Shown here piece after piece: positions 23,801 to 56,100 of a stretch of DNA of 64,000 nucleotides. The stretch is from Brachyhypopomus gauderio (Eukaryota > Chordata > Actinopteri > Gymnotiformes > Hypopomidae), in contig NC_135211.1 of NCBI RefSeq assembly GCF_052324685.1, forward strand, positions 7,918,386 through 7,982,385, given 5' to 3'. Position numbers and translations under genes: made by a program. Below the pieces are notes generated by a model that was not told where the DNA came from, did no database searches, and saw nothing but the letters and a program-made list of their open reading frames with translations. Position 1 is the stretch's first letter. Each line of letters starts with the position of its first letter.

Positions 23801-34546
<10,746 letters not shown>

Positions 34547-44103: not shown

Positions 44104-47100
44104 TCAGTAGTCAATTATGTTTTTAATAAATTCCAGGAGCCTCTTTCCATACAGCTCCGGTTGTAGTGCAGAGATTTCTGCAACAGTCTATGAGAAAACA
44201 CACCACCGAGACACAAAAATATTTGGCACAACTACAACAATGGGTAATACTCCATGGTACCACTGAGGAACCTTGAATATTTAAGGGAATAATCACACAG
44301 TACTTTATGTGTCTAAGAAACCACTACAAAATGCATAAACAGTTAATTTAATGTCACTGACAACTTTTACTTACCCCATATTTAACTGTTTTTGCTGCAT
44401 GGGCAGCTTTCTTCTTGGTGTCATAATGTGTCAGAAGACCTATAAAATACACCTCTCTCTGTGGGGCACCTAGTGAGAGATAAAACAGATATGTTTTGGA
44501 TAATTCTTTCTTAACAATCAAAGAAATATGCAAGCATACATTTAATGCTGTACTGTCCTGTCCATTTAATTTCAGAGGTTAATTTCTGTAATTTCTACAG
44601 CATTTGGCAGATGCTCTTTTCCAGATTGGCTTTTTCAAAGTTTCATGTATGACTGTATGTGTGCTCCCTGGAGGTCAAATCCATGACCTTAGTGGCCATG
44701 ACCAGGTGAGCAATAAGGGTTTCAGCAGACTCACCAGATGCACTCTGAATGGTGTACGCATCAAAACATGGGTGGAACGTGCCTGGAGTCAAAGGCTTAC
44801 AGGCACCCATGTGGTCCGATATGCCCTCGGGTGAAGCACTGAGAGAAGCTACAGCAGGGGGGGCAGGAGATATGCCACTCTCTGGCTCCTCTTCATCATC
44901 GCATGGAGAATTTCCATATTCTTCCTCTTCCTCTCGCTCTGCCCTCTCCACATCATGGATCCCTAACAGCAGGCTGTAGTCTATGATCTTCACACGCACA
45001 AAGAACTGTGGGCGTATACATAGATATGCCACATGAAAGGAAGAAGTAGCTTTGAAAACATTATTAGTAGAAGTATTAGTATTAGCAAAACAGGGCAATA
45101 ATATTAGTAAGTGACAAGTGTTCATTGCTTAAATATGCAGAACATGGGAGAATTGCCTAATGAGAAAAGCAACAGTACATTACAGTATGATTTCTATATA
45201 TTATCAGCCAATGATTTCCCAGCCAATGATCTAATATTATTATATTAATAATAATAAACTATTATAGTTTATATTAGTATTTTTATAATTCATGTTATTA
45301 AAAGAAACTGGGCACAACCTTAAGAGTACTTTTAAAAGGACAACTGTTAGACTAATACTTTTGTCATGCTAAAAAAAAACCTTGTCATCAAGATTCAAGG
45401 TTTGAATCGGTTTTAAGGTTTCCTTCATTTGTACACATTTCCTGCTGTTGTCTTAACAAGATCTATAGGTGTCAAAAGTTGTCGGCGAGAAGTGCTGAGG
45501 TGTGTGTTATCTTTTCTGTCACACACACACACACAGTTACATAACTTATGCTAACCTCTCTATTAACAGGAAAGGTCCTTCTGAATGCATTCAACAACAA
45601 CAATAACAACAATAAGAAAAAAAATCTGTCCAGAAGATCCTAAACAGCACTTTGCAACAACATGAAACATAGTGGAAATGACAAATAAATACAAGAAATA
45701 GAAGACATTAGCATATGCATATCAGCATTCTGAATCACTCACCTCTATATCTCTGTTCAGCTTTGCTAAAAGCTTCTCTTTCTCTTCATCACTAATGTAA
45801 ATATGTTGCATATTGTTCCTGAAGTCTATATCCTTCAGCATGGGGAGATCTATTACCTGTGTTATATCACAAATAGAGCATTTATTATTTTCTTTCTAAT
45901 TAGATTAGAATGTCCTGGGTGGTATAAGAATGGAACAGTTAATTAGCTAATCACTGTGTCTCTTCAGTCAATTGTCTTCTACTGTCTCCACAAGTGTTAA
46001 TATCTCATATTACCACTAGAGTGCAGTAAGATAGAAATCAAGTGGGGGATTTCCACTCAACCAAATATTAAACCAGAATATTACTGTAAAGTGCTTAAGG
46101 TAAAGATAAGGATATATGTTTGAGTATGTGAGACTTTAAACCATAATACTGGTACATGAAGAAAATAAAAAACGTTTTAGAATGATTTTTAGAATGTCAT
46201 GTCTTAGAGTAGGGGTGCCCATTATGTTGAAGGAAGTGTCGGTCGATCGCGAAGGAATGTAAGTAGATCGCATGACATTAAAAAGTGGTGGATGAATGGC
46301 AGGCTATCGTCCATCTGCACTGACGGTTGTATATATACACCGCCCCGGTAGCAATTTACGTTCGCCCAAAGGTAGATCTTTCTGACTTGGTCATCTTATA
46401 AGTAGCTCACAAGCTGAAAACTTGTGGGCACCCCTGTCTTAGAGCAATGTATGGGTGGGCCAGACATTTTAACTCTACCAAAGCTTGAAAAATGTTTCCA
46501 TTCTACTACATCAACCCAGGCACTGTTTGAAGCCAGCAACCCCCACTATGTCACAGAGATTAAACCAGTGATGTTAAGACCATCTAGTTTTCCCAGATTA
46601 GACTGAGACTGGTGGTGGTTGAGTCAGAATACCAAAAAAAGAGAGCTGGTGAGATCAAGTCCAAGACCCTTACATACAGAGGTGTCAATTCCAGGTTCAG
46701 AAAGTAAAAGTCCTCACCAGGATTTTGCTCAAGCTTGCTAGATTTTCAAATTAGTGAAATCCAGGTAAAATTTGTGGAATCAACACAATCCAGGAAGCCT
46801 GAGCAAAATCCTGGTGAGGACTTTTACTTTCTGAACCTGGAATTGACACCTCTGCTTACATATGTACTTACATAATAAACAACAGGAATTGCCCACAAAA
46901 ACACTATTACTCACAACACCAAATAGATATTTTTAGTTGCTATTTCCGGTGCTGTTTAAGTGATAAAACGAGGCAGGATCAACAGGCAAGGGAAAACACA
47001 GGCACGTGGAACAGGGGACCAGAGTGACAGCTAGAAGAAGGGGGCGGAGCCCTACGTGATACACTAATGTTTCATTCACTGTTTTTTAATTAAGATATTG

Positions 47101-50100
47101 TATGTGTGTGCAGTATATTTGTATAGTGCAGAACCACGTTAAGTATATTAGTCTGGCCCTCTAAGACCATTCCAGTTTCTTATGTGGCCCCTTGGGAAAA
47201 TTTATTGCCCATCCTGTTCTAGACTGTTTTGTGAAATGAGCATAAGCCAATGAGTAATTTTGGCGAGCTCAGGCAGTGCACTTGCTGACATATAATGCAG
47301 GTGGACAGATGCTCAATGCTTAAGGGCAAAGGCTTGCTTCATCTTGATTTTCAACATGAATGCAGTGGTGCATCATGATTCTTCTGTCTCTCAGTATTAA
47401 GTGGGAGGTGTCAGACATATGCATTCAAATGTAAAGCCCAGCAATACCCCCAAGTTGCCTAAATGCAAAGCACTTGCACTTGCAATTGCTTTTACATAAT
47501 ACACAGTCCCCTTTATCTTTGTCACTTGTTTCACCATATACCAAAGTACCCTTAAAAAAATATAGCATTAGTCTTGCATTTAATTTTTTAAATAGTTTCC
47601 TTTTCCCTGTAATTAAGTAGTGCAATGGATAACTTTGGGATTTTGCTAATCATATGTTTCTAGTTGATAAAATGTATTCCAGGAAATTACTTAAAACAAA
47701 CTCAGCTAATACCTAACGAGACTAATACCATGCATGCTGTTTACGTGTGAGCATGTCCTGCCTGCTACAACATATTTGTGTGGCAGGGCATTTTCAAAAT
47801 AAAAATAAAAATCAGACCAATACTTGAACAACTTCCATTAAGCACACTGAGACGGTGTATTTTTCTGCAGAACAGTATGTTTAAACAACAAAAAAAGTAC
47901 ATACTAACTGCAGAGTCATTGTCAGACATGGTTATATCATCAGGGCAACTGTTTTCAGTTATGTAATAACCAGGACAACTGTTGTCCTTTGAATGCTACT
48001 TTTAAATGTCCTTCCAGACTTAATGAGAGCGTTGTCTACTCAGTTTTTAATTTGTTAACACAAACTGTTTTAAAGTTGGAGTCATGCGTGTTGAGCTTTG
48101 ACTCCCCTCGACTCAAGGTACATCCGATATTATCTTATTCTTCACCCAAATAGGACATGTTTGGAACACTGCTGAAAAAGTGAGATGTTGGTGAGCATTT
48201 CTTTCAAACATTACCTTAAAGTCATACTTCCTGTGGATAGTCAGTCTGTGACTGAACATGTTCCTCATGACAATAAGGTATGTGTCTTCGCTGTTGACGG
48301 TAATGCGATACATTCCGAGGAACTGGGGTAGGAGGGTGATGCTGTGGCATGTCACAATATGCTGAAAAGCACACAAGCACATCATTCATATGCAACCCCA
48401 CCCCCCCTCCCCCCCCCCCAAAAAAGACTCCCGAAACATAACATTAAAACATTATAGTCTGTTATGATGAATGTGTGGATTCTTGCCATGATGTTGCAAA
48501 GTCACGATATTTATGTTATAATGCTAGCTCCTGTAAAATGTCTCCACAATATCAAATGCAAGGCTGTGAGTGGCACTGTAATCAAAGCTGACCTAACCTG
48601 ACATGAGCACTCAGTCTCATGTCTTCTCATTTGAATGTACTATATAAAAACTGATGTTATTAACCTTTATGATTATATAAATACATTTAAAATCAGAATT
48701 TAAAATGAACATTTTTTTTAACTTTTACAGATGTATTTTATATTTTTGTATGTATTTTTCTCTATTTTTATATTTTTCACTATTTTTTAGCACTCAATTA
48801 AACCATGTATGTTTGCTATGTGTAAAGTGTGCATTTGAATGTGAATTTGAATATGATTCTATGTAAATTCAACCAGGTACATCAATATTTCCAGTTCCTC
48901 TGGCATTTACTTAGGTTACACCACACCTGGTGGTACTCTGACAGGATATTGTGCATATCCTGCACATCTTCACTGAAGAGCTGTTTGACAGTTAATGAGC
49001 AATCATATGAAGTGAGCAACAGCTTCTCCTCCTGACTGTCACCATCCTTAATTGGGCTTGTGTGGGTTAAAGAGGCCTAGGGAGACAAAGTAAAAATACT
49101 TTTCAGTTGCTGTGCAAACCATGATCAGTATGGTGCTGGAAGAAAAACCACTCCTAGTTGGGTTTTACAGAGAATTCACATTCAAAATCTTTACTTTTTA
49201 GCCATATGCAAGGTGGTCAGAGTACTAAATCACACTCAGATAAAAGTATTGTTGATGAACTAATAACTCAAGTATAAGTAAAATAACCCAAAGAACAAAC
49301 AAAAAAACTTAATTACATTGAAGTAAAGTGGTAGCAGTGCTACTGAGGTAGTGAGTTCAATAATTACAACAAGAATTGAAATATAGCTCTATGCCTGCTC
49401 ATCAACAAGGATCAAGTGGCTCAACCCTGCACCTGTCTTGTGTATTCCCAGGGCCGTTATTAACCTTATACTGCAGATTCGCACACCCGGTGGCCATTTT
49501 TAACATTTTTGACATAGTTCACATTAAAACTAGATATCTCAAGTTGTACATATAGGAAAATTATCATTCATGGCTCAAACTGAAGTAGGCAGTTGGGGGA
49601 ACATATTAATACACTTCAGTATCATATTCACATAATTTGGTTTATTTTAGAGCCTCTATTGCAGATGCTAATATGCCAGGAATGTCACAAATGCTGACTT
49701 GAACTTGAACATGACTGGAATGTATATTCACATAGTTATTCAAATTAGGTATCAGAAATTACAATAAATTTCGCTAGGGTCTTTTCTAACAACACAGAAA
49801 AAATGGAGCAAATCCATGCAAGCATTGAAAAGTTATTCAGCTTTATCCAAGGTATGTCAAGTGCACCACACCCATGTCTAAATATGCCACACCCAACACA
49901 CACCATTAGCCAACTAAGCTAACATGCCAACAAATTCCTTACACGAAACCGAGGAGCTACGACAAACAACAATGCTGCACATATTACAGCAAGACCAGAA
50001 AATTCCAATGACTAAATTTCATGTCCAAATATGAACGTTATGATATCATATTTATGTCCAATATAGTCCGACAGCATAAGCTAGGTTACCGTAGCCAACT

Positions 50101-53100
50101 CCGGTAGCATCCGACACGATACAGAGTGCTGCAGCACTCAAACGCTCTAAAACTGTTTATAATCTAACGCTTAGTTAATGTTTAGTATTAGAATATATAT
50201 TTTGTACAATATCGCTTATGAAAAATTATCCATTGTTACTCACAGTACGTAGAATCGCGTCGTAGCCGGTGTACCGTCTTACTTCCGGGTTGGCGAAAAT
50301 TCCGAAAATTGCTCATATATTCCACACAAAGTAATCCGTTTATGTTCAAAAGTATCCACAATCCGCATAAAAACGAACAAAATAATCCATGGCTGCTTCA
50401 GTTTCGCCGAACAGTGTGTTCTGGGGAGCTTAGCTTAGGTTAGCAAAGGGTTAGCTTATGTTGCTATGCTAGCGGCCGAAATTGGAAATGAAGCGCCAGT
50501 TTCCGAGGGCTCAATTTAAAAATATACTTGACCAATCATGTCATATGAGGGCTGGCTAGCTTCGGAAGGATGTACACTATTGGTTAGAACAGCTTTCAAT
50601 CACTTCTGAGGCGCCAGCTTGTCTCTGTGGGCTTATTGGTTCACCCTCCCCCCCTCCCCTTCGCACCTCGCCGTGGGAGAGGTTGTAAAACCTGTCACTC
50701 AAAGTCACTACCCCACTTTAGACCAATAAAAACCACTCAAATCAAAGCAGAACCGCTGCAGCTTTGTAATGAGGGGTCAAATCAGCGTTAAGAATGCTTC
50801 TGTGACGCTTAGGGGGCAGATTTGTCGGAGTGTCTCATTCAGGAAGCGGATTTTGGAAAATTTTGCAGTGAGGTGAGCAAGCTTTTTAAGGTACTTAACC
50901 ACAACGGATCTACGCTGTTAAGGTCTTAAATTAAAGCCTTATTAGTAAACGATTTTTAGGTGACAAAACATTAAGACATTTCACAACATAAATATGTTTT
51001 GTAAACGGATATGTCGGGAGACCCCCTCGCGGGGTGCACTTTTGTGGTCAACTTCAAAGCCGGATATCTCGCGATCGGCTGCACGTAGACGGCTGAAACT
51101 CGGTAGGCATGTAGATGGGATAGGAAATTTTGATTTAAGCGCTTTTGTTCGGAGATTCATTAATGTTTAATATGTTTTATATCGCCGTAAAGGAGCTGGG
51201 CCCGCCGGCGGGCCCACTAGGGGGCGCTTCTGCATAATATTATTTGCTTTTTCGTCAGCTTGTTTGTTTGTGCTTGTAACCTATTATGCAGAAGCGCCCC
51301 CTAGTGGGCCCGCCGGCGGGCCCAGCTCCTTTACGGCGATATAAAACATATTAAACATTAATGAATCTCCGAACAAAAGCGCTTAAATCAAAATTTCCTA
51401 TCCCATCTACATGCCTACCGAGTTTCAGCCGTCTACGTGCAGCCGATCGCGAGATATCCGGCTTTGAAGTTGACCACAAAAGTGCACCCCGCGAGGGGGT
51501 CTCCCGACATATCCGTTTACAAAACATATTTATGTTGTGAAATGTCTTAATGTTTTGTCACCTAAAAATCGTTTACTAATAAGGCTTTAATTTAAGACCT
51601 TAACAGCGTAGATCCGTTGTGGTTAAGTACCTTAAAAAGCTTGCTCACCTCACTGCAAAATTTTCCAAAATCCGCTTCCTGAATGAGACACTCCGACAAA
51701 TCTGCCCCCTAAGGCTGGAAACATACTTGCTGTTTGCCCATGCGTTCGCGTAGACAACGTTCGCGTACGCGTCGCGTTAACTATTGGAGGACGTGCAAGA
51801 CCTACGCGCCAAACCGACGCAGGATACGCGAAGCAGCCATGATGCGTACGCGAACGCGTAGTTAACAGCAAGTATATCTTAGCCTTAAGCGTCACAGAAG
51901 CGTTTTTAACGCTGATTTGATCCCTCATTACAAAGCTGCAGCGGTTCTGCTTTGATTTGAGTGGTTTTTATTGGTCTAAAGTGGGGTAGTGACTTTGAAT
52001 GACAGGTTTTACAACCTCTCCCCCGGCGAGGTGCGAAGGGGAGGGGGAGAGGGTGAACCAATAACCCCACAGAGACAAGCTGGAGCCTCAGAAGTGATTG
52101 AAAGCTGTTCTAACCAATAGTGTACATCCTTCCGAAGCTAACCAGCCCTCATATGACATGATTGGTCAAGTATATTTTTAAATTGAGCCCTCGGAAACTG
52201 GCGCTTCATTTCCAATTTCGGCCGCTAGCATAGCAACATAAGCTAACCCTTTGCTAACCTAAGCTAAGCTCCCCAGAACACACTGTTCGGCGAAACTGAA
52301 GCAGCCATGGATTATTTTGTTCGTTTTTATGCGGATTGTGGATACTTTTGAACATAAACGGATTACTTTGTGTGGAATATATGAGCAATTTTCGGAATTT
52401 TCGCCAACCCGGAAGTGAGATGGTACACCGGCTACGACGCGATTCTACGTACTGTGAGTAACAATGGATAATTTTTCATAAGCGATATTGTACAAAATAT
52501 ATATTCTAATACTAAACATTAACTAAGCGTTAGATTATAAACAGTTTTAGAGCGTTTGAGTGCTGCAGCACTCTGTATCGTGTCGGATGCTACCGGAGTT
52601 GGCTACGGTAACCTAGCTTATGCTGTCGGACTATATTGGACATAAATATGATATCATAACGTTCATATTTGGACATGAAATTTAGTCATTGGAATTTTCT
52701 GGTCTTGCTGTAATATGTGCAACATTGTTGTTTGTCGTAGCTCCTCGGTTTCGTGTAAGGAATTTGTTGGCATGTTAGCTTAGTTGGCTAATGGTGTGTG
52801 TCGGGTGTGGCATATTTAGACATGGGTGTGGTGCACTTGACATACCTTGGATAAAGCTGAATAACTTTTCAATGCTTGCATGGATTTGCTCCATTTTTTC
52901 TGTGTTGTTAGAAAAGACCCTAGCGAAATTTATTGTAATTTCTGATACCATGATACATTTACTATGTGAATATACATTCCAGTCATGTTCAAGTTCAAGT
53001 CAGCATTTTTGACATTGCTGGCATATTAGCATCTGCAATAGAGGCTCTAAAATAAACCAAATTATGTGAATATGATACTGAAGTGTATTAATATGTTCCC

Positions 53101-56100
53101 CCAACTGCCTACTTCAGTTTGAGCCATGAATGATAATTTTCCTATATGTACAACTTGAGATATCTAGTTTTAATGTGAACTATGTCAAAAATGTTAAAAA
53201 TGGCCACCGGGCGTGCGAATCTGCAGCATAAGGTTAAGATGGAAGATAAAACACATCATGGTTAACCCTAGCCTCTTCAGCCATCGTTACAATTACATTA
53301 GATGAAACTTTATTTTCTCTGCGCTAAGTAGAATGCCAGCCATCAAAGCCATGTGGGACTGCTACCAACATAATATTGTTGGACAAACAAAAATGTGACT
53401 ACTAGCTAAATGTGAATGACCTAAGTATAATCACCATCACAAAAATGCAATACATACATTTAACAATACACAGAAAAGTAAAAAAGCCATCACATCTTTA
53501 CATATGTAAATGTAACCACTTGTCTCCGATTAGACAGAATACTGAAATACTGAAATCATATTGTGTTTTTTTTTCATTCAGGGATTGATATTTTAATTGT
53601 AATGCAAAGCTTATGGCAATTGACATGTAATACCCTTAAATATCACCACCAGACCCAGTCTGGGGTGCTTGTGTATCATCACATTCAAGTTCAGGCTGCT
53701 TGACATTAGGCAGCAATCTGTGAAATGTACTGAGGGCACTGGGTGTGGCTTTATGCAAACACCCATGCAGATGTCAGCCAAAATTGTTTCACCCGGTCTA
53801 AAATTCATATGACGCAAGATAGTGAACTGGATGCCTCCACAAATGTTACATTATCAACCAGTAGCTCACATTATGCTACACAAAAAACATGGGATTAGTA
53901 TCATGATTAATTTATTTTGTATTTGAATTGTATTACATTATTTATTGGAGTATACTTGCCAACATCTAAGTATCTGTGCATCTCAGTTTGTAAACATCTC
54001 AGTGTGTAAACCTGCCCTAGCTTTTCCCCAAAAGCTATTTCCCAGTAAAAGCACTGGTCAGAAGCGTCTGCTTTACTGGTGGGTACGAGTAGACACTGAG
54101 TGTCACGTATGGCCTCGCCCCCTCCCTTGGCTGTCACTCCGGGTTCCCTTGTGTCTGTGTTGCCGTGCCTGTTTATCCCGCCCCGCTCGTTTGTCTTCGT
54201 GATTCCTTGTTTATTACCACGCCCCTTGTTATTACCGTCACCTGCCCCTCGTTTAATGTCATTGTATTTAAGTCCCGTCATTCCCCAGTCTGGTATCCGT
54301 GGTTTTGTCTATTCAGTTGTTCATGCTGTTTGTCTATGCCTTGTGCTATACGCTTTGTCTCTGTGTCCTGCCCGTTATCCTGTCTCGTGAGTACTCCCCG
54401 TTTGCTGCCCAGTTGCCCTGTTGTCTGTTTGTTTCAGTTACTCTACGTTTTACTTACGTTTAAGTCTCTAGTCATGTCGCTCAGTGTCTCGTGTTCGGAC
54501 TCCCTTTCGGCTTTGACCAGTGCATTCCTGTTTGACCCTGATTTTGGTATTCCCTTCATTAAACCTTGCTCATCTCAGCATTTGTGTCCGTCTCCTCGCT
54601 CCGTGGCGCGAGCCACGTTACATAATCACGGATCTAACCAGGACACAGCGAGAGAGCGAGACTCCGGTGAGTTTAGTCGCTATAACGAGTTGTTGGCTGC
54701 TTCCGTGCAGTTTAACTCTCATGTGTTACAGCGCGAACGAGCCGGAGACAGGAATACCCCTGGCGCTGTGGGAACAAGGAAGTCTCGTCGCAGACCGAAG
54801 AAAGCGCAGTCTCTCACAACTGGCTTTCGCGACGAGACTCCTATTGAGCGCTGTGAGTCTGCCCCGCTTGGCGAACACCACAGGGGTGAACAACCTGTGG
54901 TGCAAGCAGCGGGCAGACGGAACGAGCGCACAGACGAGCTTTGGCTCAACCCTCGGTTGGCTCTCGATAACCACTGCGAGCTCCCGACGCCTCAGAGGAG
55001 GCGGAGCCATCGTAGAGAGAGCCACAGAGGGGCGTGTGTGTCTGTGTGTTCTTCCAGGCTCAACCCGGACCTCGTGGAAGAGGACCTCCCTCTGCTGATC
55101 CCAGAAGCCGCTCCCCGAAGGCCCCCCAAGAATTTTTTGGGGGGACGCAGTAGCCACGCACCCCAGGAGTGGCTGGCTCGGAACCCGGAGGACGTCAGTA
55201 TGGCGGACACGCCCCCCGATGACGTCAGTATGGCGGACACGCCCCCCGATGACGTCAGTATGGCGGACACGCCCCCCGAGGACGTCGGTACGGCGGACAC
55301 GCCCCCCGAGGACGTCGGTACGGCGGACACGCCCCCCGAGGACGTCGGTGCGGCAACTCCGCCCCCCGAGGACGTCGGTGCGGCAACTCCGCCCCCCGAG
55401 GACGTCGGTGCGGCGACTCCACCTCCCCGTGGACGTCATGTCACATCTGCGCCCCGTCCCCGCTGCCCGTCGGCAGTCCACGGCAGTTCCCGTCCCCGCT
55501 GCCCGTCGGCAGTCCACGGCAGTTCCCGTCCCCGCTGCCCGTCGGCAGTCCACGGCAGTTCCCGTTCCCGCTGCCCGTCGGCAGTCCACGCCAGTTCCCG
55601 TTCCCGCTGCCCGTCGGCAGTCCACGCCAGTTCCCGTTCCCGCTGCCCGTCGGCAGTCCACGCCAGTTCCCGTTCCCGCTGCCCGTCGGCAGTCTATGCC
55701 AGTTCCCGTCCCTGCGACCCAGGAGGGGTCGTCCACGCCGGTTCTTGTACCCGCGACCCAGGAGAGGTCGTCCACGCCGGTTTCTGTCCCCGCGACCCAG
55801 GAGGGGTCGTCCACGCCGGTTCCTGTCCCCGCGACCCAGGAGGGGTCGTCCACGCCGGTTCCTGTCCCCGCGACCCAGGAGGGGTCGTCCACGCCGGTTC
55901 CTGTTCCCGCCGCCCGGCCGCGCCTGTTCCCGCTGCCCGCCAGCGGACCCCGCCTGTTCCCGCTGCCCACCAGCGGACCTCGCCTGTCACCCCAGAGACT
56001 GTGCTGCCCTCGTGTGGGCTCGGACTCAATGTGTGTGTTCCTGCCTCTATGCCCGTGTTCCCCTTGCTCCCGTGTGCTGTCCCCGTGGTGGTGTCTGTTC

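Follow-up and report, generated by a model that had tools for sequence, protein, structure and literature searches.

Two probably independent, opposed insertions of a piggyBac-type family with a ragged right end form an inverted repeat in Brachyhypopomus gauderio

Is a long inverted repeat with transposon-like ends one mobile unit, or two insertions that happen to lie side by side? The question is raised by a 3.77-kilobase (kb) inverted repeat in a stretch of 64,000 nucleotides from Brachyhypopomus gauderio (NC_135211.1, positions 7,918,386 to 7,982,385; hereafter the window, in which coordinates are counted from the first base). The original prediction, made from the letters of the window, described a single fold-back element with piggyBac-like TTAA ends inside pip4k2c. 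We conclude instead that the repeat very probably consists of two copies of a ~1.78-kb piggyBac-type family, which inserted independently and in opposite orientation at TTAA sites ~45 base pairs (bp) apart, and in which the left end is placed precisely while the right end is often ragged, presumably through end joining.

Two inverted arms are flanked by TTAA

Comparison of the window with itself returned two inverted arm pairs, 49460-50821/51876-53237 with 98% identity and 50808-51239/51282-51713 with 100% identity, the latter separated by 42 bp. The left arm is 1,776 bp long and the right arm 1,952 bp, which is 1,776 bp plus a 176-bp offset due to one insert, so the self-comparison bears out inverted arms of 1,776 bp around a 42-bp gap once the insert is removed. 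The TTAA predicted outside both arms is also present: CCTTATACTGCAG adjoins TTAA at 49460-49463, CCTTATGCTGCAG adjoins TTAA at 53234-53237, and both arms, read inward from outside, begin with TTAA followed by CCTTATRCTGCAG. With up to three mismatches allowed, the window contains the end 21-mer at these two places only, and none of 100 shuffles contains it; a search of viral contigs for the exact 21-mer gave no match. The features of the repeat are as follows.

49460-49463, no strand: TTAA target at the left end of the left copy (TTAA precedes 83 of 87 intact left ends genome-wide).
49464-51239, plus strand: left copy, subfamily A, with ends CCTTATACTGCAG...CTTCTGCATAATA and a right terminus short of the full GGG; no private change against nine A copies.
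51240-51279 (boundaries +/- 2 bp), no strand: spacer of ~40 bp, read as pre-insertion host DNA; part of a single alignment to C5:13544586 that also takes in the left flank and 17 bp on the right.
51280 (+/- 2 bp)-53233, minus strand: right copy, subfamily G with a private insert, right terminus AGG beside TTAC; assigned from genome-wide matches and the subfamily alignment.
51712-51885, no strand: private insert of the right copy, 174 bp when read as AGGCT...AGCCT with a TA duplication, or 173 bp with TAA.
52950-52960, minus strand: private change cluster of the right copy, arm positions 274-283 in the subfamily alignment.
53234-53237, no strand: TTAA target at the left end of the right copy, read from the sequence.

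The two arms belong to different subfamilies

We aligned both window arms with nine copies of subfamily A and six copies of its sister subfamily G. The left arm is a subfamily A copy with zero private changes relative to the nine A copies. At 15 arm positions (7, 22, 225, 284, 432, 512, 817, 1093, 1150, 1186, 1211, 1235, 1313, 1329 and 1332) the right arm carries the state common to 6/6 G copies, as opposed to the nine A copies and the left arm, and it agrees with some of the G copies at positions 217, 813 and 1169. Private to the right arm are the change cluster at 274-283 and the insert, which (query positions 1352-1520) is covered by no other listed genome match. The inner 432 bp are identical between the arms. 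Local gene conversion between them was dropped as a cause, because the other copies show no subfamily difference in this stretch either and it is common to both subfamilies.

Two details of the alignment stand apart from this assignment. The cluster at 52950-52960 comprises ~7 changes inside 10 bp and looks like the mark of local template switching or of an excision. Further, all 15 to 18 subfamily-diagnostic sites lie before arm position 1333, and the final 440 bp (1333-1772) are free of them (p = 0.014 to 0.006), which could reflect either recombination between subfamilies or constraint.

Copies elsewhere in the genome carry a single arm

We searched the genome (796.5 Mb in 840 contigs) with the left arm and scored the best 40 of 1,545 first-look candidates, the window among them; choosing by score favours full copies. 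All of these best 40 match at 100% after rounding across the 1,737-base query. Twenty of the 39 matches outside the window were fetched together with ~1.5 kb of left and ~4 kb of right flank, and 20/20 of these long-flank loci contain a single arm only (18 are distinct, since L009/L010 and L024/L025 have common flanks). The exact 25-base left end with its TTAA occurs 112 times in the genome. Among the 100 listed of these 112 left ends, the two in the window are the only ones that face each other at 3.75 kb, with distances computed for 88 and the remainder judged by eye. The ~1.78-kb family is young.

The longest stop-to-stop frame touching the element is 105 amino acids and runs through the private insert; the arms hold no transposase gene (DDE_Tnp_1_7) and no frame longer than 105 amino acids. 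Without coding capacity, the family is at most a non-autonomous piggyBac member.

Older members of the family were also met. L121 (C8:18572900-18580500) is a second tail-to-tail pair, its copies 3.6 kb apart and 99.4% and 95.7% identical to the left arm, one of them the older. An old family copy at L114 (C1:12045600-12051200), 86.6-88.4% identical over its longer pieces, has at one of its internal TTAA sites a nested piggyBac with TTAACCCCTTCAGACC ends and an open transposase frame.

A relative of the site lacks both copies

The strongest evidence comes from C5:13544586, which was reached through a 26-base piece of the left outer flank (2 mismatches). Neither element is present at this locus, where left flank, spacer and right-flank start are contiguous (103/130 identical, with 8 gap positions). 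The alignment takes in ~62 bp of left flank and the spacer, continues for 17 bp into the right flank and does not extend further. Because the three pieces are contiguous at this locus, we take the spacer to predate both elements. Relative to it, ~6 bp beside the right end of the left copy are absent (by eye; a rough count at that identity). The subfamily difference, the private insert, the empty relative that retains the spacer and the single-arm copies elsewhere together lead us to read the arms as two copies, each with its own insertion.

These observations bear on two other explanations. Fold-back (FB) elements have long inverted repeats and a short loop, as the hairpin does, and a 3.77-kb fold-back transposon with 1.78-kb terminal repeats that moved as one unit into TTAA would account for the TTAA at each outer end. 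It would not explain why the arms come from two subfamilies, why the spacer resembles the pre-insertion site at C5:13544586, why 20/20 long-flank loci are single-armed, or why no other pair among the 100 listed of 112 left ends faces at that spacing. We therefore consider the claim of one fold-back element to be contradicted and this explanation barely credible: the hairpin differs from FB elements in being two adjacent insertions and not a mobile unit. The loss of this claim is a caution for counting fold-back elements from assemblies. The second explanation, an assembly artefact in which one arm was inverted and duplicated, is extremely improbable given that the arms differ at subfamily sites and by the private insert; the 18 arm differences are common to all or some of the six G copies, and left flank, spacer and right-flank start stand in matching order at another locus.

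Left ends, right ends and the TTAA target fit piggyBac

In the cleanest copies, the full element reads TTAA-CCTTATACTGCAG...CTTCTGCATAATAGGG-TTAA. The CCYT terminal motif is present, as CCTT on the left and CCCT at full right ends. The terminal inverted repeat is imperfect, at 14/19 (shuffle p = 1e-5), and none of the 3,430 other arm 19-mers scores above 12; its length agrees with the 12-19 bp usual for the piggyBac superfamily. Clean TTAA duplications were found at L014 and L030, which lie in tandem repeats whose neighbouring units serve as empty sites, and L039 has the duplication with one extra T; all three were read by eye. The Kolobok superfamily also uses TTAA, with termini that are not known to be CCYT. 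Read from the sequence, the CCTT/CCCT termini, the terminal repeat and TTAA fit piggyBac, and the predicted piggyBac-like termini and insertion at TTAA are upheld, intact left ends almost always standing at TTAA.

Presumably a piggyBac-type transposase mobilises the family in trans. The genome is rich in open piggyBac frames, with 116 scored of 1,287 candidates. The original prediction had called for a copy count and an autonomous relative with matching ends; the 112 TTAA-flanked left ends supply the first, and no relative was found among 8 piggyBac loci. Searching for places where the left end is followed by other sequence gave three, of which two were fetched: L136 was rejected as a partner because it is an older family copy, and L134 because it is mostly different sequence with a common end. 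L137, a separate locus chosen for its right end, has only 32 bp in common with the arm. Open piggyBac transposase frames of ~440-550 amino acids form dense clusters at C9 17.6-23.2 Mb, C22 1.39-1.69 Mb, C3 26.57-26.64 Mb and C36 2.61-2.66 Mb; those on C3 and C36 are often ~5.6 kb apart, suggesting arrays.

Intact left ends are precise and right ends are often ragged

TTAA precedes 83/87 intact left ends (80/84 by distinct flanks), the exceptions reading CCCA, CTAA, CTAA and ATTC. Of the copies fetched with both ends, 58/59 have the left TTAA, in a set selected by score and hence biased towards intact left ends. The right-end census covered the 100 listed of 126 matches, 96 of them distinct. 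Full GGG right ends make up 34/96; TTAA follows directly (+0) in 8, after one T in 2 and after two T in 6, and 18 have none within four bases. Sixty-two of the 96 were scored short. TTAA directly follows 12 of these, or 11 once a variant full end is set aside, as against a per-position background of 1.3%; this excess ties the cut to the TTAA boundary. The 73 rows reading CAT comprise 34 full and 39 short or variant ends, with TTAA near the junction in 27, and over all distinct right ends TTAA is near the junction in 30/96.

Because the left census needs intact terminal letters, we restricted the contrast to intact ends: 83/87 on the left against, at best, 16/34 on the right (full ends with TTAA, allowing 0-2 extra T; Fisher p = 7e-9). 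As a control we used L109, a piggyBac with an open transposase frame in the same assembly. Among 100 listed of 127 L109 right ends, 97 are intact, 91/97 of these stand at TTAA and 2/100 are short, which differs from the 16/34 of the family (p = 2e-8). With this control clean, the raggedness is specific to the ~1.78-kb family and does not belong to the assembly or to resident piggyBac elements in general. One right terminus is unusual in another way: at L097 (C21:3540660-3540960) it reads CTGCAGCATAAGG-TTAA, as if swapped for an inverted left terminus.

At two right junctions without TTAA, both in repeats that have numerous empty relatives, comparison with these shows what was lost from the target. 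L021 keeps one TTAA and lacks the next 9 bases (TTCCAAAAA); at this junction every one of the 40 listed relatives has 8-9 extra bases, and of four empty relatives fetched three were aligned, one reading TTAA and the others CTAA and CTAG. At L036, 2 or 6 bp of target are lost, according to which of the two aligned relatives is used (eight were fetched). Losses of this kind are what an end-joined right end would leave.

One-ended insertion as a possible cause of the raggedness

We infer from these junctions that one-ended insertion may be frequent in the family, with the right end joined by host repair. In the mechanism that we propose, a piggyBac-type transposase would cut both element ends and transfer the left end into TTAA. 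The right end would be properly transferred in a minority of events; otherwise it would lose 0 to ~12 bases, in some cases more, before host end joining sealed it close to the cut. The joining could take place during insertion, as one-ended transposition, or after a later cut at the right end only. Our tentative proposal, which we hold at somewhat less than even confidence, is a natural, recently active piggyBac-type family that spreads mainly by one-ended transposition, so that most new copies lack a second TTAA and are perhaps immobile.

Canonical insertion could also have come first, followed by repeated transposase cuts at the right end only, after which end joining eliminated the TTAA along with a few bases. 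Full ends that have lost TTAA are expected if the cut falls exactly on the boundary, and the full GGG without TTAA is seen in 18/34 full ends; the same history requires a cut confined to the right end in many copies. We rate this later cutting as possible though rather doubtful, and one-ended insertion is otherwise indistinguishable from it on the present data. A retroelement read in reverse, with a fixed 3' end at TTAA and a variable 5' end, would likewise give one fixed and one ragged end and small target losses, yet it does not sit with the 14/19 terminal inverted repeat (shuffle p = 1e-5), the TTAA duplications at clean copies or the CCTT/CCCT termini, and we find it very unlikely.

Several points weigh against independent insertion or against one-ended transposition of a piggyBac-type family. 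At the C5 relative, the right flank is matched over 17 bp only. The chance expectation of a tail-to-tail pair within 46 bp is ~0.0002 with 126 right ends or 0.03 with 1,545 candidates, so that independent insertion leaves the closeness of the two copies somewhat unexplained. The left census was blind to truncated left ends, whereas the right census was anchored 10 bp inside; in a partial check of the genome matches, 39/40 other copies begin at base 1, the remaining one at base 4. The 62 ends scored short are not all truncations: the 23/96 right-end rows that do not read CAT include variants or related families, at least 4 of them reaching ATAGGG, as does one CAT row. Right junctions without TTAA that were compared with empty sites number two only, L021 and L036. 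Finally, an autonomous partner with the ends of the family was found in 0/8 of the piggyBac loci fetched, out of 116 scored.

The distribution of copies and flanks was also measured. Copies cluster mildly: among 88 places, 4 pairs lie no more than 50 kb apart where 0.5 would be expected, and the window pair is one of the four. Inverted similarity of left and right flanks is 5.64, against 5.23 +/- 0.15 for shuffled pairing, a weak excess of 2.7 standard deviations that we did not use as evidence. Direct flank similarity is 7.49, against 5.89 +/- 0.18 for shuffled pairing, and we put this excess down mainly to copies in tandem repeats.

Comparison with known piggyBac systems

One parallel comes from HeLa assays, in which piggyBac gave single-ended insertions into TTAA and a lariat model was offered (PMC3952818). 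The likeness is that one end enters TTAA and the other does not. There, the event is an aberrant product of a plasmid assay in which the other end stays on the donor, whereas the present family is natural and multi-copy and its second end is presumably cut and rejoined. In the same assays, left/left end pairs were inactive with the native piggyBac enzyme (PMC3952818); by analogy, the window composite, in which both outer ends are left ends, may have little mobility.

Coral CMITEs (PMC2872659) resemble the family in their TTAA target, CC[C/T]T termini, short terminal repeats and lack of a transposase gene; they are ~100 bp long, against 1.78 kb here, and the ragged right end, mostly without TTAA, sets the present family apart. 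Medaka Teratorn, a piggyBac-herpesvirus fusion (PMC5601938), likewise has piggyBac ends, and differs in being ~180 kb long with herpesvirus-like genes, whereas the arms have no frame above 105 amino acids. We found no natural piggyBac family with such end asymmetry in the open-licence literature, represented mostly by titles and the beginnings of abstracts; Repbase and Dfam lie outside this coverage, and the family may be catalogued. piggyBac is valued for precise two-ended insertion, and one-ended events were described as aberrant assay products (PMC3952818). If they are frequent in this family, it would offer at least 100 natural junctions on which to study what features of the ends make transfer two-ended.

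Gene setting and further features of the window

That the repeat lies in an intron of a minus-strand pip4k2-type gene, as predicted, is supported by a PIP5K Pfam match, barely over the cut-off, at 44646-45128, and by PIP4K2-like exons at ~48.2-48.3 kb and 57.85-57.90 kb, located with query motifs; one further exon motif was looked for in the pip4k2-type region and not found. Whatever the origin of the arms, a transcript across both could pair along ~1.8 kb, which makes the hairpin a possible source of double-stranded RNA within a gene intron. ADAR editing, small RNAs and hindered splicing of the hairpin-bearing intron, all raised by the original prediction, are possible.

Each copy also carries, near its right end, a candidate CTCF-like motif. 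The pair of copies sets the two motifs face to face.

51214-51228, plus strand: CTCF-like motif of the left copy, CCACTAGGGGGCGCT, close to its right end, read from the sequence.
51293-51307, minus strand: CTCF-like motif of the right copy, read from the sequence, facing that of the left copy across the spacer.

Away from the repeat, an open frame of 320 amino acids with Tc1/Sleeping Beauty-type transposase domains lies at 24617-25576.

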